DNA of 64,000 bases from Phycisphaerales bacterium (GTDB lineage: Bacteria; Planctomycetota; Phycisphaerae; Phycisphaerales; UBA1924): the NCBI GenBank assembly GCA_020831775.1, contig JAFIFZ010000067.1, positions 1-64,000 of the forward strand, written 5' to 3'. The stretch's first letter is position 1. Each line of letters starts with the position of its first letter. The notes under the pieces are model-generated. The model was not told the DNA's origin, searched no databases, and saw only the letters and a list, made by a program, of their open reading frames with translations. Positions 11,988-23,668 of the stretch are shown here, piece after piece. Made by a program: the position numbers and the translations under genes.

Positions 11988-12062
11988 GGCCCCATCGTCT
12001 AGCCTGGTCCAGGACGCCACCCTTTCAAGGTGGAGACACGGGTTCGAATCCCGTTGGGGTCA
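11988..12062 (+). tRNA. tRNA-Glu (anticodon UUC)
   Basis: A 75-base cloverleaf. Acceptor arm GGCCCCA (11988-11994) pairs with TGGGGTC (12055-12061), discriminator A at 12062. The anticodon stem CCACC/GGTGG holds the loop CTTTCAA with TTC at 12024-12026. The T arm is ACGGG-TTCGAAT-CCCGT. No CCA is encoded. Two runs of six T (12113-12128) lie 50 bases downstream and may mark the transcript end. Confidence 0.95.
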
Positions 12063-12130
12063 CTTTGGTTTCGTGCAGGGTGGCGCGGGGGAGTGCCAGA
12101 CCGTGCCGGAGCCTTTTTTCTTTTTTGCTG

Positions 12131-13144
12131 TCAACGGGTCCGGGTGAGGTAGACGGTCACCCCGGGGAAGCGGCCGGCGAGATCGGCGTGGTCTTCGCCT
12201 CGGGCGAGGATGACGCTGATCGCGGTGGCGAGGGCGTCGGCGGTGGTTGCGTTGGGGGCGACGATGGTGACGGTGTCGCTCAAGATGAGTCCGCGGCCGG
12301 TCGTGGGGTCGATGATGTGCGAGTAGCGCTTGCCGCCGGCGTCGAGGTGCTGGTGGGCGTCGCCGGATGTTGAGACGCCGGCGTGTTGCAGGTCGAGGTG
12401 TTCGGCGTTGTCGCCGGGGAGTGCGATGCGCCAGCCGTTGCGTCCGGGCGGGGCGCGGCCGACGGCGATGTCGCCCCCGAGGCGGACCATCGCCCGTTCG
12501 ACGCCGCGGGCGGTGAATTCGGCCAGCGCCTCGTCGACGGCAAAGCCCTTGCCGATGCCGCCGAGGTCGAGCCGCATCCCCGGCTTTGCGAGGGTGACGG
12601 CGCGTCCGCGGGCGTCGAGGTGCACCGCCTCCCATCCGACTGCCGTTGCTGCTTCGTTGAGGCTCTCTTCGGCAGGCGGCTCGCCCCGTCTTCGGGCCTC
12701 GCGCCAGAGCAGGGTGTGCGGGCCGATGGTCGGGTCGAAGGCGCCGGCGGAGGCCTCGGCGCTCTCGATCGAGGCGAGGAGCACGCGGAAGAGATCGTCG
12801 CTGATCTCGTGCGCCGTGGCGTGGGGGAGCTCGGCGAGCCGCATGAGTTCGCTGTCCACTCGGTAGTCGCTCATCACGGCGTCGAGCCGGTTCATGCGGT
12901 CGAAGGCGGCGGCGGCGTGTGCTCGCGCTGCCTCCTCGTCCCGTGCGTACAGCACCACCGAAGCCTCGGCCGCCATGATGATCGAGCGGAACTCGAACCG
13001 CTCCAACCCGACTTCGGGGTCCTGATCCGGCCCGGCGGCGCACGCGACGGAAGCCAAGGAAATCGCCGTCAGCAGCAACCACGCCACGGCGCGGATCCGG
13101 GGCCGATCTGTTATGTTGACTGACGCGGGCCCAGGTGCGTGCAT
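12131..13144 (-). CDS. apbE: FAD:protein FMN transferase (ApbE family), lipoprotein
   Basis: ApbE proteins attach FMN covalently to threonine residues of exported flavoproteins such as Rnf and Nqr subunits. The 337-residue protein has an N-terminal signal with a lipobox-like ASVAC (Cys near residue 35). It also has the family motifs DAVMSDYRVDSELMRL, GAFDPTIGP, DLGGIGKGFAVDEAL near 200, RLGGDIAVG and HIIDPTTGRG with the metal-binding Asp/Thr region. The ATG at 13144 overlaps the proposed start of the divergent gene by 2 bases. No flavoprotein target is visible nearby. Confidence 0.9.
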   Translation of the reverse strand: MHAPGPASVNITDRPRIRAVAWLLLTAISLASVACAAGPDQDPEVGLERFEFRSIIMAAEASVVLYARDEEAARAHAAAAFDRMNRLDAVMSDYRVDSELMRLAELPHATAHEISDDLFRVLLASIESAEASAGAFDPTIGPHTLLWREARRRGEPPAEESLNEAATAVGWEAVHLDARGRAVTLAKPGMRLDLGGIGKGFAVDEALAEFTARGVERAMVRLGGDIAVGRAPPGRNGWRIALPGDNAEHLDLQHAGVSTSGDAHQHLDAGGKRYSHIIDPTTGRGLILSDTVTIVAPNATTADALATAISVILARGEDHADLAGRFPGVTVYLTRTR

Positions 13145-13994
13145 GGGTCCATGCTACCTGCACCGAGGAGCCGCAACCGTGTTGTTCACGCTCTCGATCG
13201 CGTGCACGGCGCTCGCCGTCAGCGCGGCCCCCGCCTCGCCCGAACCGTTCGTGCAACGGCTGGAAGGCACGACGCTCGAAATGCGTCTTGTCCCCGTGGA
13301 AATCCCAGGCCCGGAGGACGGGCAGCAACAGACGATCTGGATGGGCGCGACCGAGGTCACCTGGGACTGGTTCGATGCCTTTGTGTACGGGCTCGACGAG
13401 GCCGACGCGGAAGCGGACGGCGCGGACGCGCTGACCATGCCCTCGCGTCCTTACATCGCGATGGATCGGGGCTTCGGTCGCGCGGGCTTTCCAGCGATCT
13501 CGATGACCCACAAGAACGCCGAGGCGTTTTGCGCGTGGCTGTCCGCCCGCACCGGCAAGCGCTATCGCCTGCCGACCGCCGAGGAGTGGCTCGCCGCGTG
13601 CGCCGCATCCGGCATCGACGAGCGCAATCTCGACGGCCACGCGTGGCATCGCGGTAACAGCAACGCCAAGACCCAGCCCGTCGGCGCGACACAGGCCGAC
13701 GCCAACGGGCTGTACGATCTTCTCGGCAACGCCGCGGAGTGGGCGACGGATCGGGACGGCAAACCCGTCGTGCTCGGCGGGTCGTACCTCACGCCCGCAA
13801 GCGAGCTCGGCTGCAACACAAAGCAGCGCCCCAGCCCGGACTGGAACGCCAGCGACCCGCAGTTTCCCCCCAGCGAATGGTGGCTCGCCGACGCGGGCTT
13901 CGTCGGCTTCCGCGTCGTGCTCGAAATGCACCCCGAATCACCCGACGGCGACACAACCCCGCGGCCCGCAAACCAGGACAAGAAAAGACCATGA
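13143..13994 (+). CDS. Exported SUMF1/formylglycine-enzyme-fold protein without the catalytic cysteines
   Basis: A 283-residue exported protein of the SUMF1 (FGE-sulfatase) superfamily: WMGATEVTWDWFDAFV, FPAISMTHKNAEAFCAWLSA, RYRLPTAEEWLAAC, NGLYDLLGNAAEWATD and GGSYLTPAS...GFRVV in the expected order. True formylglycine-generating enzymes have a paired-cysteine block after GGSY; here only one Cys is found, so a non-enzymatic or different role is likely. The start is uncertain. ATG 13143 gives a signal peptide with an Arg; GTG 13179 has a better ribosome site (GAGGAG, 8 bases). Its stop overlaps the start of the next gene (ATGA), so they are probably co-translated. Confidence 0.8.
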   Translation: MGPCYLHRGAATVLFTLSIACTALAVSAAPASPEPFVQRLEGTTLEMRLVPVEIPGPEDGQQQTIWMGATEVTWDWFDAFVYGLDEADAEADGADALTMPSRPYIAMDRGFGRAGFPAISMTHKNAEAFCAWLSARTGKRYRLPTAEEWLAACAASGIDERNLDGHAWHRGNSNAKTQPVGATQADANGLYDLLGNAAEWATDRDGKPVVLGGSYLTPASELGCNTKQRPSPDWNASDPQFPPSEWWLADAGFVGFRVVLEMHPESPDGDTTPRPANQDKKRP

Positions 13995-15292
13995 GCTACA
14001 ACGAGAAAGATGTCGTGCGTCGGCCGGGCCTCGGCCTCGGGCGGCGAGAGTTCCTCAAGGTCGCCGCCGCCGGCGCAGCGACCGCCGCGTTCCCCGCGTG
14101 GGGCGCAGCGGGCGGGGCCGATCGCATCCGCGTCGGGCTGATCGGCTGCGGCGGGCGCGGAACGGGCGCAGCGGTGCAGGCGATCCGTGCCGACCCGGGC
14201 GTCGTCATCACCGCCATGGGCGATCTCTTCGAAGACCGCCTCGACAGCAGCCTGTCGAGACTGAAAGAGCACTTCGGCGATCGCGTCGAGGTCGGCGACG
14301 ACCGCAGGTTCACGGGCTTTGACAACCACCAGCGCGTGATCGACAGCGGGGTCGATGTCGTGCTGCTGTGCGCTCCGTCGCACTTCCGCCCGGCGCACCT
14401 GGCCGCGGCGGTCGCGGCCGGCAAGCACATCTTCTGCGAGAAGCCGATGGCGGTCGACGCGCCTGGCCTCCGCTCGGTGATCGCGTCCGCCGAAGCCGCC
14501 CGGATGAAGCAGCTCTCGCTCGTCTCGGGCTTCTGCTGGCGGTACAGCAGCCCCGAGCGTGCGACCTTCGCGAAGGTCCATGAGGGCGCGATCGGCGATG
14601 TCCGCGCCGTGCACACCACCTACCACGCCGCGCCGATCAGGCCGCCCGAGCGCAAACCCGAGTGGTCCGAGCTCGAGTGGCAGATCCGCAACTGGTGGCA
14701 TTACAACTGGGCCAGCGGCGACCACATCGTCGAGCAGGCGTGCCACAGCGTCGACAAGATCAACTGGGCGATGCGGGGCAAAGTCCCGGCCCGAGTCACG
14801 GCGCTGGGCGGACGCCAGGCCAGGCCGCCCGAGCGGTTCGGCAATGTCTACGACAACTTCTCGGTGATCTACGAGTACGAGACCGGCGAACGCTGCTTCC
14901 ACACCTGCCGCCAGGTCGCCAACACCCCCTTCGACAACACCGACTACATCATCGGCGCCAAGGGCACATGCTTCGTCAACGGCTGGGCGCCGACGCACCG
15001 TATCGAGGGCGAAACACCCTCGGAGTACGAGGGCGACCGACCCAACATGTACCAGGTCGAGCACGACGAGCTCTTCGCCTCGATCCGCAGCGGCAAGCCG
15101 ATCGACGACGGCGAGCTGATGACACTCAGCACCATGATGTCCATCGCCGGGCGCATGGCCGCGTACACCGGCCAGACCCTCACCTGGGAGCAGGCGATGA
15201 ACTCCAAGGAAGACCTGACGCCCGAGCACTACGAGTTCGGCGACATCGAGACGGCCCCCGTCCCGGTCCCGGGCGTCACGCCCTTCCGCTGA
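13991..15292 (+). CDS. Gfo/Idh/MocA-family oxidoreductase, Tat-exported
   Basis: A 433-residue NAD(P)-dependent sugar dehydrogenase-type protein. A twin-arginine signal (RREFLKVAAAGAATAAF, about 19-37) is followed by a Rossmann fold (RVGLIGCGGRGTGAA), then the family's EKPMAVDAPGLRSV motif and a C-terminal alpha/beta domain with HIVEQACHSVDKINW. Planctomycetes carry many such exported paralogues, usually next to sugar isomerase and DUF1080 genes as here. The ATG overlaps the previous stop. Substrate unknown; 3-oxidation or reduction of a glycoside is a reasonable guess from context. Confidence 0.88.
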   Translation: MSYNEKDVVRRPGLGLGRREFLKVAAAGAATAAFPAWGAAGGADRIRVGLIGCGGRGTGAAVQAIRADPGVVITAMGDLFEDRLDSSLSRLKEHFGDRVEVGDDRRFTGFDNHQRVIDSGVDVVLLCAPSHFRPAHLAAAVAAGKHIFCEKPMAVDAPGLRSVIASAEAARMKQLSLVSGFCWRYSSPERATFAKVHEGAIGDVRAVHTTYHAAPIRPPERKPEWSELEWQIRNWWHYNWASGDHIVEQACHSVDKINWAMRGKVPARVTALGGRQARPPERFGNVYDNFSVIYEYETGERCFHTCRQVANTPFDNTDYIIGAKGTCFVNGWAPTHRIEGETPSEYEGDRPNMYQVEHDELFASIRSGKPIDDGELMTLSTMMSIAGRMAAYTGQTLTWEQAMNSKEDLTPEHYEFGDIETAPVPVPGVTPFR

Positions 15293-15330
15293 GTCGCCCC
15301 CATCGCCACGCCCAGCAAGGAGCGCCGGAC

Positions 15331-16251
15331 ATGGACCGTGACGCACCGAAGCCGATCGACAGGCGGACCTTCCACGCGATGACGCTCGCTGCCGCGGCCG
15401 GCGCGGCGCTGCCCGGTCTGCGAGCCGCCGGCGCAGAACCCGACGCCCGCCCCGCCAGCCTCCGGCACGCCGTCAAGTACGAGATGGTCGCCTACGACGG
15501 CTCGGTGCTCGACAAGTTCCGCCTGCTCAAGCGCCTCGGCTACGACGGCGTCGAGATCGCAAGCCCCAACGAACTCGACCAGCAGGAAGTCATCGACGCC
15601 CGCGACGAGACCGGGCTGAAGATCCACGGCACCGTCTGCTCGACGCACTGGAGGCTCCCGCTCTCCCACCCCGACGCCGATGTCCGCAGGCAGGCGATCG
15701 CGGGCGTCGAGCGGGCGATGCACGACTGCGTCGCCTACGGGGGAAACACGGTGCTCGTCGTGCCCGCTGTCGTCAACGCCGAGGTCTCCTACGCCGACGC
15801 GTACGAGCGATCGCAGGCCGCGATCCGGCGCCTCATCCCGCTCGCCGAGCATCTGGGCGTCCGCATGGCGATCGAGAATGTCTGGAACCACTTCCTGCTC
15901 AGCCCCCTCGAAGCGGCCCGGTACGTCGACGAGTTCGAGAGCGACGCCGTCGGCTGGTACTTCGACATCGGCAACATCGTCAACTACGGCTGGCCGACGC
16001 ACTGGATCCGAACGCTCGGCGACCGCATCCTCAAGCTCGACATCAAGGACTTCAGCCGCAAGAAGCGCGACGAGGAAGGGCTCTGGCGCGGGTTCGCCGT
16101 CGAGATCGGCGAGGGCGATTCGGACTGGCCCGGCGTTATGAAAGCGCTCGCCGAGATCGGCTACTCGGGCTGGGCGACCGCCGAGGTGCGGGGCGGGGGC
16201 GAGGACCGCCTGCAGGAGATCAAGCGGCGGATGGACAGCGTGCTGCGCTAA
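15331..16251 (+). CDS. Sugar phosphate isomerase/epimerase-family (xylose isomerase-like TIM barrel), exported
   Basis: A 306-residue protein with a Tat-like signal (DRRTFHAMTLAAAAGAAL) and an AP-endonuclease-2/xylose isomerase-like barrel. Visible parts are LGYDGVEIASPNELD, GLKIHGTVCSTHWRLPLS, GVRMAIENVWNHF (Glu as probable metal ligand), WYFDIGNIVNYG (Asp) and LDIKDFSRKK, ending with ATAEVRGGG. AAGGAG nine bases before the ATG supports the start. It follows the Gfo/Idh gene by 38 bases and is almost certainly in the same operon, acting on the same exported sugar or its keto form. Confidence 0.87.
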   Translation: MDRDAPKPIDRRTFHAMTLAAAAGAALPGLRAAGAEPDARPASLRHAVKYEMVAYDGSVLDKFRLLKRLGYDGVEIASPNELDQQEVIDARDETGLKIHGTVCSTHWRLPLSHPDADVRRQAIAGVERAMHDCVAYGGNTVLVVPAVVNAEVSYADAYERSQAAIRRLIPLAEHLGVRMAIENVWNHFLLSPLEAARYVDEFESDAVGWYFDIGNIVNYGWPTHWIRTLGDRILKLDIKDFSRKKRDEEGLWRGFAVEIGEGDSDWPGVMKALAEIGYSGWATAEVRGGGEDRLQEIKRRMDSVLR

Positions 16252-16258
16252 AGCACAC

Positions 16259-17617
16259 TCACCGATCCGAGCCGATCTCCCGCACGCGGATGTTGCGGAA
16301 GCGCACCGGGCCGCTGTGGTTCTGCAGGCCGATGTAGCCTTCCCGCCCGTGTCGCTCGGGCGGGCAGGTCCACTCGCAGACGGTCTCGCCGTTGAGCACG
16401 ACCGTGTAGTCGTGCCCGACCACCGAGATCACGAAGGTGTTCCACTCGCCGGGCGGGTTGGAGGCGAGGCTCGTCGCCGGGGCGTGGTTGTAGATCGCGC
16501 CGGTCATTTGCTCGCCCTCCTCGATGTCGTAGATCTGGATCTCGTGGCCCTTGCGCACGGCGTCCCATGGCGAGTTCGGCGGCTCGTGGAACCGGACGAA
16601 GACACCGGAGTTGTCGCTCGCCTGCTCGTTCTTCCACTCGACAGTGAGCTCGAAATCGCGGAACCGGCGGCGCTCGTACCAGAGCATGCCCATCCCGCCC
16701 GTGGCCAGCAGCACGCCGTCTTCTCCTGGGTTTTCGTGGACAAACTCGCCCGGCCCGGTCATCGCCCAGCCGTCGGTCGATGTTCCGTCGAAGAGCGTGT
16801 ACACGCCGTCGGCGTCGGGCTGTGGTGCATCGGATGCCCAGACGATCGCGTTTGACATCATGCCGACGAAATGCTCGTCTTCGAGCGTGCGCTCGTCACT
16901 CCCGAGCACGGTGTAGAAGACCCGACCGCGCCCGAGGTTTTTCTCCCAGGCGACGGGGTGCGGCATGATGTCGTCCGCGTCGATGACCGGCAGCGCCCGC
17001 GCGAGCACCAGTGATCCGGATTCGTCGAGGCCGCGCAGCCCGTGAAGCTCGGCATCGAGCATCCAACCGCCGGGCAGCCCGCGTGCCACGGAGTGCTCGG
17101 CAGCGTCGATCCGCACACCGATCTGACCGGTCGTGCTCGGAGATCTCAGTCTTCCGCCGATCAGCGGCTCGAACGCTGCGCTGGACACTTCACCTTCGGG
17201 CGCATCGATCCCAACAAAGCCTCCGCCGTCACGCACGCGCTCCACCAATCCCGACCTGAGTTCGGGCGAGAGCGCCCCGAGCCACGCCCGCCCGTGCGCG
17301 ATCACGACATCGAACTCCGTGAATCGGTCCGGCCCGTCGAGCAGGACGCCTCCGCCCCCGCCTTGCCCCTCACGCTCGCCGAGCGTCGCGTGGATGAACT
17401 CGAACCGACCGGGGCTCAGCGCATCGAGCCTCTGCCACAACGACCCGTCCGCGTCCGTGCGCTCGGCGGAAAGCACGAGCGCCCGAACAGGCCCTGGATC
17501 GACGGCGCCCTGGCCAGCGCCAACCCCGGCGTCGGGCCCCCCATGAGCCCCCCGATCAGCCCATGTCCCGCAGCACGAACCCAGCACGATCAGGCCCGCG
17601 GCCAGCTGTTGCTTCAT
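16259..17617 (-). CDS. ThuA-like domain fused to 3-keto-disaccharide hydrolase domain (DUF1080)
   Basis: A 452-residue exported protein. After a signal peptide (MKQQLAAGLIVLGSCCGTWA) comes a ThuA/trehalose-utilization-like class I amidotransferase-fold domain (about 55-270; RALVLSAERTDADG, FTEFDVVIAHG, GGGFVGIDAPEG, LGRGRVFYTVLG). A DUF1080 beta-sandwich follows (about 275-450; YTLFDGTSTDGWAM, FELTVEWKNEQASDNSGVFVR, GYIGLQNHSGPVRFRNIRV). DUF1080 proteins have been linked to 3-keto-glycoside cleavage. The ATG at 17617 has GGAG six bases before it, preferred over 17629. It converges on the isomerase gene with 7 bases between stops. Confidence 0.85.
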   Translation of the reverse strand: MKQQLAAGLIVLGSCCGTWADRGAHGGPDAGVGAGQGAVDPGPVRALVLSAERTDADGSLWQRLDALSPGRFEFIHATLGEREGQGGGGGVLLDGPDRFTEFDVVIAHGRAWLGALSPELRSGLVERVRDGGGFVGIDAPEGEVSSAAFEPLIGGRLRSPSTTGQIGVRIDAAEHSVARGLPGGWMLDAELHGLRGLDESGSLVLARALPVIDADDIMPHPVAWEKNLGRGRVFYTVLGSDERTLEDEHFVGMMSNAIVWASDAPQPDADGVYTLFDGTSTDGWAMTGPGEFVHENPGEDGVLLATGGMGMLWYERRRFRDFELTVEWKNEQASDNSGVFVRFHEPPNSPWDAVRKGHEIQIYDIEEGEQMTGAIYNHAPATSLASNPPGEWNTFVISVVGHDYTVVLNGETVCEWTCPPERHGREGYIGLQNHSGPVRFRNIRVREIGSDR

Positions 17618-17721
17618 CGACGGCTCCATCTGTGTGAGGATTTCTTTACTATACACGACCGCCGGAGCCGGCCCGCTCGGGCGACAGAGCCGCACCAACG
17701 CCCGCCCAGGAGTCCGCGTCC
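17618..17721 (+). promoter_or_regulatory. Divergent promoter region, DUF1080 gene / MFS gene
   Basis: The 104 bases between the two divergent starts contain an A+T-rich island at 17636-17656. It offers TATACA (17650-17655) on the plus strand and TATAGT on the minus strand. No convincing -35 boxes are seen. The transporter ATG has AGGAG nine bases upstream. Confidence 0.35.
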
Positions 17722-19047
17722 ATGAAGCCGCTGCCGACCGCCCTGCTCTCGCGGCTCTCGCTGATGATGTTCCTGCAGTACGCGATCTGGGGCGCCTGGC
17801 TCCCGTTGCTGTACCTCTTCCTCAGCCGCCACCGGGGCTTCGGCGACGCCCAGATCGGCTACCTCTTCATGATCGGCGGGATCGGCGCCGTCTTCGCCCC
17901 CTTCATCGCCGGGCAGATCGCCGACCGTTTCTTCAACACCGAACGCTACCTCGCCATCAGCCACATCGCGGGCGGGCTGCTGGTGTGGCAGCTCGCGTGG
18001 ATCGACGCCTACTGGATGTTCTTCCTCTTCTCACTCCTTTACTCTCTCATCTACTCCCCCACCCTCGCCCTGACCAACTCGATCTCCTTCCACCACCTGC
18101 CAGACCGTGATCGTCAGTTCGGCAAGGTCCGCGTCTGGGGCACGCTGGGCTGGATCGCAGTGGGCATCGGCATCGGGCAGTGGCTCCTGCACAGGCACAC
18201 GCCCCCCGAGGCGTCGGACGCCGAGCAACTCGCCGCGCAGGCCGCCGGCATCGCCGACGCCTTCCGCCTCAGCGCCGTCCTCGGTATCGCGTTGGGGCTC
18301 TACTGCCTCACGCTCCCGGCGACACCGCCGGCCAGGGGCGAGAAGTCCAACGCGACGCTCAAGGCGATCGGCGAGGTCCGCCGTCAGCCCCTCGTCACGC
18401 TCTTCCTCATCGCCGTGCCGATCTCGTGCATCCACCAGTTCTACTTCGTGCACACCGGCGCGTTCCTCGGCACATTCCAAGCGGGTTTCGGCGATGTCGA
18501 CCTCGCCGCGACGATCAACCGCGTCTTCGGCGTCGGGGGCGGCGGGCTGATGACCATCGGGCAGATGTCCGAGATTCTTGTCCTCGCGCTCATCCCGCTC
18601 TTTGCGCGCAGGTTCTCGCGAAAGACGCTGCTGGCCGTCGGCGTCTCGGCCTACGCCGCACGCATGGCCCTCTTCGCCTATGTCGACGCGATCCCGCTGC
18701 CGCCGGTGCTGACGCTGATGCTCGGGGTCGCGCTCCACGGCGTCTGCTTCGGCTGCTTCGTCTTTATCGCCTTCATGGTCGTCGACGAACAGACGACACC
18801 CGGCGTGCGCGCCAGCGCCCAATCCCTCTTCGGCACCATCATCTTCGGCGTCGGCATCATCGTCGGCAGCGTCTTTGCAGGGCAGATCGGCGAATGGGCC
18901 CGCACCGACGGCGTGATGAACTACACCCGCCTCTTCAGCATCCCGATGTGGCTGGCGATCGGCTGCCTCCTCGCGCTCCTCGTCTGCTACCCCGGCGGGC
19001 GTGTTCCTGTTGTCGAGCCGCCACGCCCAGAAGAGGCGAAGAGCTAG
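17722..19047 (+). CDS. MFS transporter, nucleoside:H+ symporter-like
   Basis: A 441-residue integral membrane protein with about 12 hydrophobic segments. The start MKPLPTALLSRLSLMMFLQYAIWGAWLP is typical of the nucleoside-permease (NupG/XapB-type) branch of MFS transporters, and PDRDRQFGKVRVWGTLGWIAVG fits the loop before helix 5. In planctomycetes such carriers often sit in sugar clusters with Gfo/Idh and DUF1080 genes, so uptake of a sugar or glycoside may be its job here. It diverges from the ThuA-DUF1080 gene and lies downstream of the oxidoreductase-isomerase operon. Confidence 0.85.
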   Translation: MKPLPTALLSRLSLMMFLQYAIWGAWLPLLYLFLSRHRGFGDAQIGYLFMIGGIGAVFAPFIAGQIADRFFNTERYLAISHIAGGLLVWQLAWIDAYWMFFLFSLLYSLIYSPTLALTNSISFHHLPDRDRQFGKVRVWGTLGWIAVGIGIGQWLLHRHTPPEASDAEQLAAQAAGIADAFRLSAVLGIALGLYCLTLPATPPARGEKSNATLKAIGEVRRQPLVTLFLIAVPISCIHQFYFVHTGAFLGTFQAGFGDVDLAATINRVFGVGGGGLMTIGQMSEILVLALIPLFARRFSRKTLLAVGVSAYAARMALFAYVDAIPLPPVLTLMLGVALHGVCFGCFVFIAFMVVDEQTTPGVRASAQSLFGTIIFGVGIIVGSVFAGQIGEWARTDGVMNYTRLFSIPMWLAIGCLLALLVCYPGGRVPVVEPPRPEEAKS

Positions 19048-19169: not shown

Positions 19170-22100
19170 TTACTGCGGGCGGGGCTTGGGCAGGTCTCTG
19201 GCGAGCGGTTGCTTGGCATCTTGCCCGGCGTGCAGGCGGGCGATGCGTTCAGAGAGCCGTTCGAAGAGGCTGAAGAAGAGCGGGACGAAGAGCGGCGCGA
19301 GGAAGGTGGCCGCGAGCATGCCTCCGATGACGCCGGTGCCGATCGAGTGCCGTGCCGCTGCGCCTGCGCCGGTCGCGACCACGAGCGGAACGACGCCCAT
19401 GACGAACGCGAGGGAGGTCATGAGGATCGGTCTGAAGCGGATTCGAGCGGCTTCTGCCGCGGCTTCCTGGATGGGCAGGCCCTCAAGCCTCTTGGCCATG
19501 CAGAACTCGACGATGAGGATCGCGTTCTTGGCCGAGAGCCCGACGAGGACGAGCAGGCCGATCTGGAAGTAGATGTCCTGCGGCAGCCCCCGCATAAAAA
19601 TCGCGAGCATGGCGCCGAAGACCGCAAAGGGCACGACGAGGATCACGGCGAACGGCATGAGCCATCGTTCGTACTGCCCGGCCAGGACAAGAAGGATGAC
19701 GACGAGGGCGAAGGCGACGAGGACTGGCGCCTGTCGGGCCGCCCGACGCTCCTGGAACGAGGCGCCGCTCCAGTCGATGGCGAAGCCGGGGGGGAGGATG
19801 TCGGCGCCGAGCTGTTCGAGGATCTGCATGGCCTCGCCCGAGCTTCGTCCCGGCGCGGGGACGCCCGTAATGCGGTAGGTCCGGAAGCCGTTGAAGTGCT
19901 CGACGATGTTTGGCCCGGCGCGGAACTCGCTGCTCACGAGGCCGGAGAGCGGGACCATCGCGCCGCTGGAGCTTCTGACATAGAACGATTCGATATCTGA
20001 AGGATCGTCGCGGAACTGCGGCTGGGCCTGGATCTGCACGCGCCAGATGCGCCCGAGCATGTTGAAGTCGTTGATGTAGACGGCGCCGAGGTAGGAGCGC
20101 ATCGTCTGGAAGATGTCGGCGAGGTTGATGCCGAGCGTTTTGGCCTGTTCGCGGTCGACATCGACGAAGAGCTGGGGCAGGCTGTAGCGGAGGGTCGCGT
20201 TCAAGCCGGTCACGCCCGGGTGGTCGTCTGCCCTTGCGAGGAACTCTTCGCCGACCTCGACGAGGCGTTCCAGCGGGGCGCCGCTGCGGTCCTGCAGCTC
20301 GAGCTGGAAACCGGCCCGCTGGCCGATGCCCTGGACGGCCGGGGGCAGGAACGAGAGGACGACGCCCTCGCGGAGGTCCTCAAACTCTGCCGAGAGCTCG
20401 GCGGCGCCGGCCTGCGCTGTGTTGCCGTCGCCACGCTCGGAGAAGGGCTTAAGCGAGATGAAAATCGCACCGGCGTTTGCGCTATTGACGCCCCCGGCGA
20501 GCTGGTCGTAGCCGACGAGCGCGACGACATCCTGCACGGCGGGATGGGCCTGGAGGAATGTCTCGGCCCGGCGGATGACATCGTCTGTCCGGTCGAGCGA
20601 AGCGCCGTCGGGGAGTCGGACACCGGCGAGGAGGAAGCCTTGGTCTTCCTGCGGGATGAAGCCGGTGGGGATGCGGTCGGCGAAGCGGTACACCACCACG
20701 CCGAGGCCGCCGAAGATGAGCAGCGCGATCAGCGCCCGGCGCATCAGCCCTCGGACGGCGCCCGTGTATGCGTCGGTCGCCTTGCCGAAGCCCGCGTTGA
20801 ACCACTTGAAGGGGCGTGCCTGTCTCGATGGATCCCGCGGCCTGAGGAGCAGCCGGCAGAGCGCCGGGCTGAGCGTCAGCGCCACAAAGCCCGAGATCGC
20901 GACGGAGATCGCGATGGTGACAGCGAATTGCTGGTAGAGCGCCCCCGTCAGCCCGCCGAGGAAAGCGACGGGCACGAACACGGCGCAGAGCACGAGCACC
21001 ATGGCGACCAATGCGCCCGAGACCTGGCTCATGGCCTTGACCGTCGCGTCGCGAGGAGAGAGCCCCTCTTCGTCCATGAGGCGTTCGACATTCTCGACGA
21101 CGACGATCGCGTCGTCGACCACGATGCCGATGGCGAGCACGAGGCCGAAGAGTGTCAGCGTGTTGATCGAGAACCCCAGCAGCAGCATGCCCGCGAACGC
21201 GCCGATGATCGAGACCGGGATCGCGATCAGCGGGATCAGCGTCGCGCGCCAGGACTGAAGGAAGACAAAGACGACCAGCAGCACCAGCAGGACCGCCTCG
21301 AAGAGCGTCTTGACCACCTCGGTGATCGACTGCTCGATGAAGGTGGTCGTGTCGTACGGGATTCGGTACTCGACGCCGGGCGGGAAGGCCTCGGAGAGCT
21401 CGTCCATCGCGCGACGGATATGCCCGATTGTCTCCAGCGCGTTGGCGCCGTCCTGGAGGGAGACCATCAGGATGGCGGTCGGGCTGCTGTTGACCCTGCC
21501 CATAAGCTCGTAGCGAAGGGACCCCAGCTCGATCTCGGCGACATCCTTGAGGCGAACGGTCCGGCCGTCGGGGTAGCCGCGGAGGATGATGTTGGCGTAC
21601 TGCTGCGGATCGGTCAGGCGCCCGCGGGTCTGGACCGGGATGGTCAGTTCCACGGCTTCGGGCGTCGGCCGCTGGCCGATCGAGCCGCTGGGGTAGACAT
21701 CGTTCTGATCGCGGATGGCGCTGATGACCTCCGCGACGGTCAGACCGAGGCGGGTGAGCTGCTCGGGGTCGAGCCAGACCCGCATCGAGTACGACTTGGA
21801 CCCGAAGATGCTCACATTGCCCACGCCCGGCTCGCGCCGGATGGCGTTGAGCACATTGACGATGGCGTAGTTGGAGAGGAAGACATCGTCGTAGCGCGGA
21901 TCGTCGGACTCGAGCGCGATGACGGCGAGCATGCCGGCGGAGGACTTCCCGACGGTGATGCCGCCGCGGATCACATCCTCGGGCAGGCGTGGGACTGCCG
22001 CGTTGACGCGGTTTTGCACCTCGACCGCGGCGATGTCCTGGTCGGCGCCGACCTCGAAAGTGGCGGTGATGGAGAGCGAGCCGTCGTTGCCGCTCTGGGA

Positions 22101-22346
22101 GCTGAAGTAGAGCAGGTTGGCGACACTGCTGAGCTGCTGCTCGATCGGTGTCGCGACAGACTCAGCGACGGTCTCCGCGTCGGCGCCGGAGTAGCTGGCG
22201 CTGATCTGGATCGAAGGCGGAACGATGTTGGGGAACCGGTCGACGGGAAGAGTGAAGATCGACACCAGACCGACGAGCACGATCAACAGCGACATGACCG
22301 ATGCGAGCACCGGCCGGTCGATGAAGATCTTGGAGAACGAGTACAC
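19170..22346 (-). CDS. RND multidrug efflux permease (AcrB/MexB, HAE1 type)
   Basis: A 1058-residue inner-membrane proton-driven exporter of the tripartite RND class. It has 12 predicted helices and two large periplasmic loops. The proton-relay pair is present as Asp411-Asp412 (GIVVDDAIVVVENVE), and the partner Lys is in LVGLSAKNAILIVEFC. Start FSKIFIDRPVLASVMSLLIVLVG is typical. Translation begins at GTG 22346 with GGAAGGA eight bases upstream. It is the third gene of an operon with its outer-membrane channel and adaptor; a hairpin lies in the 50-base gap before it. Substrate unknown. Confidence 0.95.
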   Translation of the reverse strand: MYSFSKIFIDRPVLASVMSLLIVLVGLVSIFTLPVDRFPNIVPPSIQISASYSGADAETVAESVATPIEQQLSSVANLLYFSSQSGNDGSLSITATFEVGADQDIAAVEVQNRVNAAVPRLPEDVIRGGITVGKSSAGMLAVIALESDDPRYDDVFLSNYAIVNVLNAIRREPGVGNVSIFGSKSYSMRVWLDPEQLTRLGLTVAEVISAIRDQNDVYPSGSIGQRPTPEAVELTIPVQTRGRLTDPQQYANIILRGYPDGRTVRLKDVAEIELGSLRYELMGRVNSSPTAILMVSLQDGANALETIGHIRRAMDELSEAFPPGVEYRIPYDTTTFIEQSITEVVKTLFEAVLLVLLVVFVFLQSWRATLIPLIAIPVSIIGAFAGMLLLGFSINTLTLFGLVLAIGIVVDDAIVVVENVERLMDEEGLSPRDATVKAMSQVSGALVAMVLVLCAVFVPVAFLGGLTGALYQQFAVTIAISVAISGFVALTLSPALCRLLLRPRDPSRQARPFKWFNAGFGKATDAYTGAVRGLMRRALIALLIFGGLGVVVYRFADRIPTGFIPQEDQGFLLAGVRLPDGASLDRTDDVIRRAETFLQAHPAVQDVVALVGYDQLAGGVNSANAGAIFISLKPFSERGDGNTAQAGAAELSAEFEDLREGVVLSFLPPAVQGIGQRAGFQLELQDRSGAPLERLVEVGEEFLARADDHPGVTGLNATLRYSLPQLFVDVDREQAKTLGINLADIFQTMRSYLGAVYINDFNMLGRIWRVQIQAQPQFRDDPSDIESFYVRSSSGAMVPLSGLVSSEFRAGPNIVEHFNGFRTYRITGVPAPGRSSGEAMQILEQLGADILPPGFAIDWSGASFQERRAARQAPVLVAFALVVILLVLAGQYERWLMPFAVILVVPFAVFGAMLAIFMRGLPQDIYFQIGLLVLVGLSAKNAILIVEFCMAKRLEGLPIQEAAAEAARIRFRPILMTSLAFVMGVVPLVVATGAGAAARHSIGTGVIGGMLAATFLAPLFVPLFFSLFERLSERIARLHAGQDAKQPLARDLPKPRPQ

Positions 22347-22375
22347 GGCGGTTGTCCTTCCGTGGCGGGGCGCCC

Positions 22376-22393
22376 CCCGGCCCGTGGGCCGGG
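22376..22393 (-). promoter_or_regulatory. Intercistronic hairpin between adaptor and RND permease
   Basis: CCCGGCCC and GGGCCGGG form an 8-bp perfect stem with a 2-base centre, four bases after the adaptor stop and 30 bases before the permease start. No T run follows, so it is not a plain terminator. It may protect the upstream mRNA 3' end or tune permease output. Confidence 0.4.
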
Positions 22394-22396
22394 CGT

Positions 22397-23668
22397 TCAG
22401 CCGATCCTGCCGGTCTGCTGCTCGGTTTCAGGGTCTCCGAGCCTGTGCCGGCCGGTGACATTGACCGGCGAGCCCGGGCGGAGCCGGAGGAGGTTGTCGA
22501 CGGCGATGACCTCACCCTCGCTGAGTCCGCTCTCGATGATCCAGCCGTCCTCGTGCCACTCGCCCAGATCGACGGCGCGGGCGTGGACCGTTCCGTCCTG
22601 GTCGATCACATAGACAGACGCGGTCGTGGGCGTCTGGAGCACGGCGCCCTTGGGCACAATCAGCACGCCCACGCGCTCGAACCCCAGCATGCGGATGCCC
22701 ACCGACTGCCCGGGGCGGAGTGTCCGATCGGGGTTGGGCACCGTGGCGCGGAGCGTGACCGTCGATGTGCTCCTGTCGACGGCGACATCGACGAAGGAGA
22801 GGCGGCCCTCGTGCGGGTGGGTGTCGCCGTCGCTGAGGCGGGTCTGGACCGACACATCGTCGCGCTCCGGCCCGGTGATCCGACCGGAGGTCCGCAAGGA
22901 ACGCCAGCGGAGCAGTTCCCGCTCGCTCATCGAGAAGGTGACATAGATCGGGTCGACCTGCTCGACCACCGCCAGCAGGCTGTTGGCGCCGTCGTCGACG
23001 AACGATCCGACATCGCGGAGCGACCGGCCGATCACGCCGTCGATCGGCGACTTGATCGTCGTGTAGCTCAGGTCCAGTTCTGACTTGACCAGTTCGGCCC
23101 GGAAGAGCTCGACATCCGCCAGCGCCGTGAGATACTCGGTCTCCCACTCCTCCAGCTCGGTCGAGGTCGCAGCGTCTTTCTCGAACAGCTCTCGGTAGCG
23201 CTCGAGCTGCCGGTACGCGCGGTCGAGCTTGGCCTCGGCGGCGGAGATTCTGGCCTTGCCTACCGCGACCTCGGCCTCGAAGGGGCGTCGATCGATCTTG
23301 AACAACTCATCGGTTGAACCGACGGTCGATCCTTCGCGGAAGAGGCGCTCGTTGAGGAAGCCGCGGACGCGGGCGCGGATCTCGACGGTCTGCGACGCCT
23401 CGGTCCGCCCGATGTAGCTCGGCGCAAAGGGGATCGACCTCGCCTCGACAACAAAGGCGGTCACGCCGATCTCAGCCGGCGTTCCCTGCACGCCTTCTTG
23501 TTCACCCCCCGATGCGCCGACCGCGATCCAGACCAGCGCGACCACGGCCACGATCGCCAGCGGCGCGATCACGCGACGGCCTCTGCTGAGCATCGATCGC
23601 TTCTTTCCCGCCCGCGACGAAGCCCCCGGGCGAGGCGCCGACCCGGTCGGCGGAGATGGATGACTCAT
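22397..23668 (-). CDS. RND efflux periplasmic adaptor (AcrA-like)
   Basis: A 423-residue membrane fusion protein: a basic Pro/Ser-rich N-terminus, one anchor helix (about 34-51, VIAPLAIVAVVALVWIAV), lipoyl halves (TVEIRARVRGFLNERLFREGSTV and YTTIKSPIDGVIGRSLRDVG) flanking an alpha hairpin, then beta-barrel and membrane-proximal domains. It bridges the RND permease and the outer-membrane channel. Its start overlaps the stop of the channel gene by four bases (ATGA), indicating translational coupling. Confidence 0.93.
   Translation of the reverse strand: MSHPSPPTGSAPRPGASSRAGKKRSMLSRGRRVIAPLAIVAVVALVWIAVGASGGEQEGVQGTPAEIGVTAFVVEARSIPFAPSYIGRTEASQTVEIRARVRGFLNERLFREGSTVGSTDELFKIDRRPFEAEVAVGKARISAAEAKLDRAYRQLERYRELFEKDAATSTELEEWETEYLTALADVELFRAELVKSELDLSYTTIKSPIDGVIGRSLRDVGSFVDDGANSLLAVVEQVDPIYVTFSMSERELLRWRSLRTSGRITGPERDDVSVQTRLSDGDTHPHEGRLSFVDVAVDRSTSTVTLRATVPNPDRTLRPGQSVGIRMLGFERVGVLIVPKGAVLQTPTTASVYVIDQDGTVHARAVDLGEWHEDGWIIESGLSEGEVIAVDNLLRLRPGSPVNVTGRHRLGDPETEQQTGRIG

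Follow-up and report, generated by a model that had tools for sequence, protein, structure and literature searches.

A candidate extracytoplasmic sugar-redox module, possibly coupled to ApbE-dependent flavin transfer, in a Phycisphaerales bacterium

How an exported oxidoreductase of the Gfo/Idh/MocA family with bound NAD(P) disposes of its electrons is not obvious. The question is raised by six neighbouring genes in a 64,000-nucleotide stretch of DNA, called the window below, from the Phycisphaerales bacterium assembly GCA_020831775.1 (contig JAFIFZ010000067.1, positions 1 to 64,000). The assembly, 3.55 Mb in size and 95% complete, holds the window on contig C77. The genes, with their Pfam scores, are the following, where Tat denotes the twin-arginine translocation route, TIM barrel the triose-phosphate isomerase fold and MFS the major facilitator superfamily:

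12131-13144, minus strand: ApbE, FAD:protein FMN transferase (ApbE 211.3 bits, cut-off 25.6)
13143-13994, plus strand: SUMF1/FGE-fold protein (FGE-sulfatase 60.8 bits, cut-off 23.3)
13991-15292, plus strand: Gfo/Idh/MocA oxidoreductase GfoA, Tat-type (three domains, 32.7-46.3 bits)
15331-16251, plus strand: TIM-barrel sugar isomerase/epimerase-like protein, Tat-type (AP_endonuc_2 143.8 bits)
16259-17629, minus strand: ThuA-DUF1080 fusion (3keto-disac_hyd 149.5 bits, cut-off 26.8; ThuA 77.2 bits, cut-off 33.4)
17722-19047, plus strand: MFS carrier of the nucleoside:H+ symporter group (Nuc_H_symport 286.6 bits)

A first-pass annotation of the window had described the last five genes as a compact exported sugar pathway, possibly for the use of 3-keto-glycosides. 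All five are real open reading frames with Pfam scores above the curated cut-offs. The annotation overlooked the ApbE gene, although it is part of the conserved unit and is the only ApbE gene found in the assembly. The conserved core consists of ApbE, the SUMF1-like protein and the Tat-type Gfo/Idh protein, to which a second Gfo and one or two TIM-barrel proteins are commonly added, and sometimes a carrier. We see about an even chance that the locus represents, in the form found in one lineage, a module for sugar redox chemistry outside the cytoplasm in which electrons are probably transferred by way of an ApbE-dependent flavin.

The arrangement of the genes sets limits on how they can be expressed. 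The tight plus-strand run is formed by the SUMF1, Gfo and TIM-barrel genes, with a 4-bp overlap between the first two and 38 bp between the second and the third. The ApbE gene is directly divergent from the SUMF1 gene, whose true start may lie downstream of 13143, since a start at this position overlaps ApbE. The ThuA-DUF1080 gene runs towards the TIM-barrel gene and away from the MFS gene. Because it lies on the minus strand, neither all six genes nor the 6-kb set, which had been taken for a single compact operon, can be transcribed as one unit. Separate expression, named by the first-pass annotation itself as an outcome that would refute its proposal, is thus suggested, not demonstrated, by the strand layout. 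A promoter scan of the locus, which is uninformative for this phylum, yielded no promoters.

The conservation of the unit was examined in 100 genomes of the family. Since these genomes are related, the linkages counted in them are not independent events; the best guards against this kinship are the second operon and the named genomes of other phyla described below. Matches to GfoA at E 1e-3 or better occur in at least 79 of the 100 genomes, the Gfo entries being the 94 strongest among the matches listed. Pfam ApbE is found in 62 genomes and the SUMF1 subfamily profile in 53; 52 genomes contain both, 37 neither, ten only ApbE and one only SUMF1. A divergent ApbE lies beside 48 of the 53 SUMF1 genes at a spacing of 86-503 bp, measured between the matched stretches and not between gene ends (53 of 61 SUMF1 places were entered, the eight left out being matches at E 8.7e-58 or weaker). 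In 41 neighbourhoods, the window and 40 others chosen from among the strongest Gfo matches and therefore neither random nor exhaustive, genes were called and clustered. This gave 30 loci with a called SUMF1 gene, some further SUMF1 genes having been missed by the gene calling, 27 with ApbE and 23 with the TIM barrel. Another TIM-barrel family was called in 14 loci, the MFS family in 12 loci and a DUF1080 family distinct from ThuA-DUF1080 in five, while other neighbours vary. The usual order is a divergent ApbE followed by SUMF1, GfoA, TIM barrel, GfoB and a second TIM barrel.

The association can also be counted from the side of ApbE. Among 104 ApbE places (ten were left out: eight second fragments of a split match and two weak, short matches), 48 belong to the SUMF1 unit and 47 are located at most 2.5 kb from Gfo genes that form part of a second operon, so that 95 of 104 are linked and nine are found elsewhere. 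A random distribution would place a few per cent within 2.5 kb of a Gfo gene, a figure estimated from about 20 Gfo-like genes per 3.4 Mb and not from a computed control. The association of ApbE, SUMF1, Gfo and TIM barrel exceeds chance. Of the nine other places, L112 and L128 lie in operons with FMN_bind and NqrB/RnfD matches, and L127, at a contig end, stands beside two gene families common to these operons. L109, L110, L111 and L100 are located near isomerase, DUF1080, MFS or fucosidase genes; L220 is at a contig end and L217 has no such neighbour.

The second operon is built differently, in the order Gfo (S2a), ApbE, Gfo (S2b), with median gaps of 22 bp between Gfo and ApbE (33 cases) and 2 bp between ApbE and Gfo (36 cases). 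Upstream there is often an MFS gene (19 of 32 loci, within 5 kb), and downstream usually a gene for a protein of some 256 residues (27 of 32). This protein, called in 31 loci at a median distance of 12 bp from Gfo (31 cases), has a conserved C-x-x-C-H haem motif and hydrophobic stretches; the one representative compared with Pfam gave no match. Its reference copy lies outside the window:

L074:1847-2614, minus strand: hydrophobic C-x-x-C-H protein, with 30 further family loci

In a tree of ApbE sequences, SUMF1-unit proteins make up 33 of the 35 tips of one clade (the other two are L109 and L110) and second-operon proteins all 33 tips of another, with three further tips besides; the Gfo tree separates into the clades A, B, S2a and S2b. 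ApbE and Gfo/Idh proteins are thus linked twice, in two architectures. This bears on the view that the linkage is incidental, a divergent promoter region shared by inheritance within one family. Such inheritance would by itself keep the arrangement, and the catalytic residues of ApbE are silent on its target. However, the linkage persists among Gfo proteins that mostly share 48-59% identity with GfoA of the window, while other neighbours change, the second operon combines the same two proteins in another design, and ApbE occurs near SUMF1 in other gene orders in Bacteroidota, Verrucomicrobiota and Acidobacteriota. We therefore regard an incidental linkage as very improbable.

The evidence from other phyla comes from a scan with the SUMF1 alignment, of which the best 80 of 349 confirmed relatives in named genomes were used. 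They comprise 59 loci of the subfamily (E 8e-26 or better) and, as controls, 21 loci of distant SUMF1 proteins (E 1e-21 or weaker), all mapped with tblastn since gene calling fails in low-GC genomes. At least one contig (L130 = G074:C2) is common to this set and the family set. Gfo directly follows SUMF1 in 46 of the 59 loci but in none of the 21 controls. A TIM-barrel relative is present in 18 of 59 as opposed to 0 of 21, and ApbE in 20 of 59 as opposed to 0 of 21 (Fisher p = 0.001), with similar mean lengths of the stretches (14.2 kb in the subfamily, 13.2 kb in the controls). The loci with ApbE belong to Planctomycetota, Bacteroidota (with Rhodohalobacter), Verrucomicrobiota and Acidobacteriota. 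ApbE is divergent from SUMF1-Gfo in Gimesia and Acidobacteria; the order is SUMF1-Gfo-ApbE in Neolewinella, Pedobacter and Sphingobacterium, ApbE-SUMF1-Gfo in Ferruginibacter and SUMF1-ApbE-Gfo in Verrucomicrobia. In 44 of 45 cases, the Gfo domain has a loose R[RK]-x-hydrophobic pattern ahead of it. In two loci of the Opitutales type (L141:7200-8921 and L143:3704-5452), SUMF1 is fused to N-terminal C-x-x-C-H segments near ApbE, and in L141 these segments are PSCyt1 haem domains. Maribacter has the order SUMF1, YceI-like protein, ApbE (L177:7734-10346, with YceI recognised by Pfam, and L173:71-2550). In L173 the next protein resembles, by eye, PSCyt1/DUF1553 proteins.

What might ApbE modify? 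The protein of the window is an FMN transferase (PF02424) by its score above the cut-off and by its Ser-His-Asp triad, and it matches ApbE structures in the PDB down to E 2.8e-30. Its N-terminus (LASVAC) is lipoprotein-like; signal peptides and Tat and lipoprotein motifs were judged by eye here and throughout. The catalytic Ser, His and Asp are kept in 70, 71 and 65 of 71 sequences, that of the window included, and a triad of this kind has been described for FMN transferases (PMC12052999). The features by which flavinylation clusters are recognised, an FMN_bind or NqrB/RnfD partner or the motif D-x-x-[ST]-G-A-[ST], do not mark this cluster. Pfam searches of the window's genome revealed neither an FMN_bind nor an NqrB/RnfD domain. 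In the family, FMN_bind was found in two of 100 genomes and NqrB/RnfD above the cut-off in the same two; a third NqrB/RnfD match, in genome G069, was below it. The separate ApbE genes of L112 and L128 lie in Rnf-type operons, which hold these only FMN_bind and above-cut-off NqrB/RnfD matches. The location of nearly all ApbE proteins of the family beside Gfo/Idh enzymes and the near absence of the usual targets point to an unrecognised ApbE substrate. It is proposed, tentatively and with somewhat less than even probability, that ApbE flavinylates a new kind of substrate, a SUMF1-like, Gfo/Idh or haem partner, and thereby provides a flavin wire from an exported NAD(P)-bound Gfo/Idh protein to the respiratory chain.

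Several observations weigh against the reading of the locus as a sugar-redox module with ApbE-dependent electron transfer. Among 13 gene families of the cluster none has a conserved D-x-x-[ST]-G-A-[ST] motif, a single protein carrying it, nor is the motif enriched in the genome, with 34 matches at the DNA level against 30 for a reversed control, the DNA pattern overlooking AGY codons for the final Ser. On translation, the motif is obtained from 28 of the 34 matches, one of them with an internal stop, and five of the 28 lie in called genes; one of the five proteins looks exported and resembles, by eye, a lipopolysaccharide-transport protein, which is not compelling as a target of ApbE. The cluster of the window contains neither the second Gfo (GfoB) nor a haem gene. 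In 39 of the 59 named loci no ApbE was found within the stretch examined, and the 21 control loci come in part from other phyla, so that lineage is not controlled for in the comparison. SUMF1 is missing from the second operon, and five loci with ApbE and SUMF1 have no Gfo in view (L141, L143, L163, L173 and L177, two of which, L163 and L173, lie at the very beginning of a contig); no single partner therefore explains all arrangements.

The oxidoreductase itself is a member of the Gfo/Idh/MocA family, with three Pfam domains above the cut-offs and with K151, E248 and H252 in 21 of 21 aligned sequences, a conserved Lys and His being characteristic of the family. Its twin-arginine motif, RREFLK, and that of the TIM-barrel protein, RRTFHA, were recognised by eye, and R18/R19 of the former and R11/R12 of the latter are nearly invariant in alignments of their relatives, in agreement with the exported character ascribed to both proteins by the first-pass annotation. 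Sugar-sugar oxidoreductases of the glucose-fructose and aldose-aldose types recycle their own cofactor. If GfoA were such a self-contained enzyme, its cofactor would be recycled on a second sugar, no electrons would leave the protein and ApbE would act elsewhere. In the PDB, GfoA is in fact matched best by 5a02, an aldose-aldose oxidoreductase (E 2.6e-12), and at lower ranks by glucose-fructose oxidoreductases; two Gfo paralogues are common in the relatives. The similarity to 5a02 is, however, distant and incomplete, and neither the linkage to ApbE nor the haem protein of the second operon would be explained, which makes this an improbable alternative to the flavin wire.

The substrate of the proposed module might be sought outside the glycosides. 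The top NCBIfam score of GfoA is that of inositol 2-dehydrogenase (67.7 of 355 bits), of the TIM barrel that of L-ribulose-5-phosphate 3-epimerase (64.3 of 200 bits) and of the carrier that of the nucleoside permease TIGR00889 (229.8 of 446.1 bits). An IolG-like dehydrogenase, a 3-epimerase or IolE/IolO-like TIM barrel and a nucleoside-type carrier could accordingly serve inositol, a free sugar or a nucleoside. All of these scores are under the cut-offs, that of GfoA being so for every one of eight NCBIfam models among the matches listed, whereas the DUF1080 gene and neighbouring genes of the alpha-L-fucosidase family point to glycans; we consider an inositol, free-sugar or nucleoside substrate rather implausible. 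The fucosidase-family genes lie near SUMF1 in 8 of 51 relatives (L051:10279-12150, by Pfam, L039, L042, L043, L044, L050, L058 and L061) and hint at fucosylated substrates.

The TIM-barrel protein has candidate metal-site residues E182, D212 and E285 in 20 of 20 sequences, position 237 being Asp in 13 and His in seven. By profile it is nearest to sugar 3-epimerases, which make up most of the 27 PDB sequences matched. None of the 27 is named as a CGE or OGE, which says little, since OGE is described as having no sequence relationship to CGE. In OGE, the catalytic His stands two residues after the first metal ligand (His132/His134; PMC10628242). The window's protein lacks this His and has Val184 after Glu182 in 20 of 20 sequences, Glu182 having been equated with the first ligand by motif and not by structure; an eliminase of the OGE/CGE type was accordingly rejected.

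These properties also bear on the route suggested by the first-pass annotation, in which Gfo oxidises the C3 of a glycoside, ThuA-DUF1080 cleaves the product and the MFS protein imports it. On this reading ApbE and SUMF1 would be accessories. The DUF1080 domain is complete (positions 4-187 of 187 of PF06439, the only match to this profile in its genome) and related to solved DUF1080 proteins, so that ThuA-DUF1080, whose N-terminus is lipoprotein-like, could cleave 3-keto-glycosides. It stands beside a Gfo, a TIM barrel and an MFS carrier, and the profile of the TIM barrel weakly matches, among other solved structures, 6wn6, a 3-keto-D-glucoside 4-epimerase (E 2.6e-5). Related gene sets are known to use 3-keto-glycosides: BT2158 is a periplasmic glycoside 3-dehydrogenase (PMC11300592), and beside the lactose 3-dehydrogenase of Caulobacter a DUF1080 gene matters for lactose use (PMC9007349). 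GfoA, on the other hand, scores far below the cut-offs of the BT_2158 and BT_2159 models for glycoside/disaccharide 3-dehydrogenases of the B. theta type (33.8 of 750 bits for NF058561, 20.8 of 650 bits for NF058563), and oxidation at C3 is therefore a guess at the level of the family. The DUF1080 gene, on the opposite strand, is uncommon beside the cluster: within 5 kb of SUMF1 it occurs in 6 of 51 SUMF1-bearing relatives, with a match to the ThuA-DUF1080 query in two more, such a match being found also near SUMF1 in L126, and the layout of the window is shared, among the 41 loci, only with G045 of the same genus. DUF1080 is a local, lineage-specific addition and not the conserved cleaving step for which it had been taken. 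As the conserved genes ApbE and SUMF1 would moreover stay unexplained, we judge the route as a whole unlikely; 3-keto-glycoside chemistry at this locus is plausible but unproven.

The SUMF1-like protein, which the first-pass annotation had left unexplained, now has a place in the conserved core with ApbE and Gfo. It carries a Sec or lipoprotein signal by eye, matches PorK, PvdO, TvpA-type and FGE structures by PDB profile and belongs to a conserved subfamily with its own invariant residues across phyla. Residues conserved in the alignments of this subfamily include E71, W132, R142, N172, E199, D238 and W246. In columns 217 and 222, which we take to be the place of the copper-binding cysteine pair of FGE, Cys occurs in 0 and 3 of 38 sequences, respectively, and the score against the PvdO model NF051459 is 38.6 of 500 bits, under the curated cut-off. 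A function as a sulfatase activator is disfavoured by the missing pair. Likewise, none of 13 recurrent neighbour families is annotated as a sulfatase, a statement on neighbours and not on the genome itself, which was not searched for sulfatases.

From these observations the following sequence of events may be envisaged. GfoA would be exported in the folded state with bound NAD(P) and would, once in the periplasm, oxidise a hydroxyl group on a sugar or glycoside; oxidation is assigned to this compartment because GfoA is a Gfo/Idh protein of the Tat type. Exported relatives of the glucose-fructose oxidoreductase (GFOR) type carry bound cofactor, and for this reason and because of the Tat route the cofactor is presumed to travel with the protein. 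The TIM-barrel protein would then epimerise, isomerise or hydrate the keto-sugar, ThuA-DUF1080 would cleave a 3-keto-glycoside in the genus of the window and the MFS protein would import the product. Since free NAD is not expected outside the cytoplasm, the electrons must leave the bound cofactor, and this need to discharge NAD(P)H would account for the presence of ApbE, which would create a covalent flavin carrier. ApbE would attach FMN to a partner, either the SUMF1-like protein or one encoded elsewhere, that passes the electrons on, although none bearing a recognised flavin site was found. Further transfer to the respiratory chain would be in keeping with the haem protein encoded in the second operon and with the SUMF1 proteins that are fused to haem segments. 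The identities of the flavin carrier and of the substrate are speculative. In its mode of action the cluster probably resembles a pathway of sugar oxidation in the periplasm; its proteins are not counted here among the glycoside 3-dehydrogenases, OGE/CGE or FGE. If the proposal is correct, the known sugar dehydrogenase systems of the periplasm would gain a new class, present in several phyla. The cluster offers a short list of candidates for the substrate of ApbE, and a genetic context is gained for a SUMF1-like subfamily without the FGE cysteines.

An AcrB-type resistance-nodulation-division pump and a HlyD-type fusion protein (19170-23668, minus strand) adjoin the MFS gene but do not belong to the conserved unit, and a tRNA-Glu (ttc) gene (11988-12063, plus strand) is close to the 3' end of ApbE.

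No paper that joins sugar oxidation by Gfo/Idh/MocA proteins to flavinylation by ApbE was found in a search that lay outside the subscription literature, and papers matching terms for ApbE with SUMF1 yielded no mention of ApbE among the matches listed. Both ApbE and planctomycetes occur in one paper, PMC11323493. Two surveys of flavinylation do not contain, as far as their main texts are concerned, the words 'gfo', 'sugar' or 'planctomycet' (PMC8238504, PMC11334425).

The known systems resemble the cluster in part. A broad-specificity 3-keto-glycoside pathway was reportedly described in Nature in 2024. The FGE/PvdO fold family shares with the SUMF1-like protein the FGE-sulfatase domain by Pfam and the PDB profile, whereas the protein of the cluster lacks the presumed FGE cysteine pair and is far below the PvdO cut-off. 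ApbE-based electron transfer outside the cytosol is known (PMC8238504, PMC11334425). Like the extracytosolic flavinylation systems in which ApbE occurs with FMN_bind, Nqr or Rnf proteins, the cluster has a triad-bearing ApbE beside presumed extracytoplasmic redox genes; unlike them, its partners are Gfo/Idh and SUMF1-like proteins, in a genome in which no FMN_bind or NqrB/RnfD was found, and without a conserved canonical motif. Pathways for 3-keto-glycosides composed of Gfo, TIM-barrel and DUF1080 proteins are likewise known (PMC10628242, PMC9007349, PMC11300592). The stepwise pathways, BT2157/BT2158 of B. theta, GlycDH/OGE/HYD/Gfo of A. tumefaciens and the PUE C-glycoside operon, combine Gfo with TIM-barrel and/or DUF1080 proteins and proceed through keto intermediates. 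In the cluster, by contrast, Gfo and the TIM barrel appear to be exported by the Tat route and are linked with ApbE and a SUMF1-like protein; the eliminase His is missing from the TIM barrel, and DUF1080 is optional. The lactose 3-dehydrogenase LacABC of Caulobacter with its DUF1080 protein is similar in oxidising the 3-position of a sugar in the periplasm, with epimerases, a reductase and a transporter encoded nearby (PMC9007349), but the Caulobacter dehydrogenase is membrane-bound, whereas in the cluster its place would be taken by a Gfo/Idh protein with presumably bound NAD(P).

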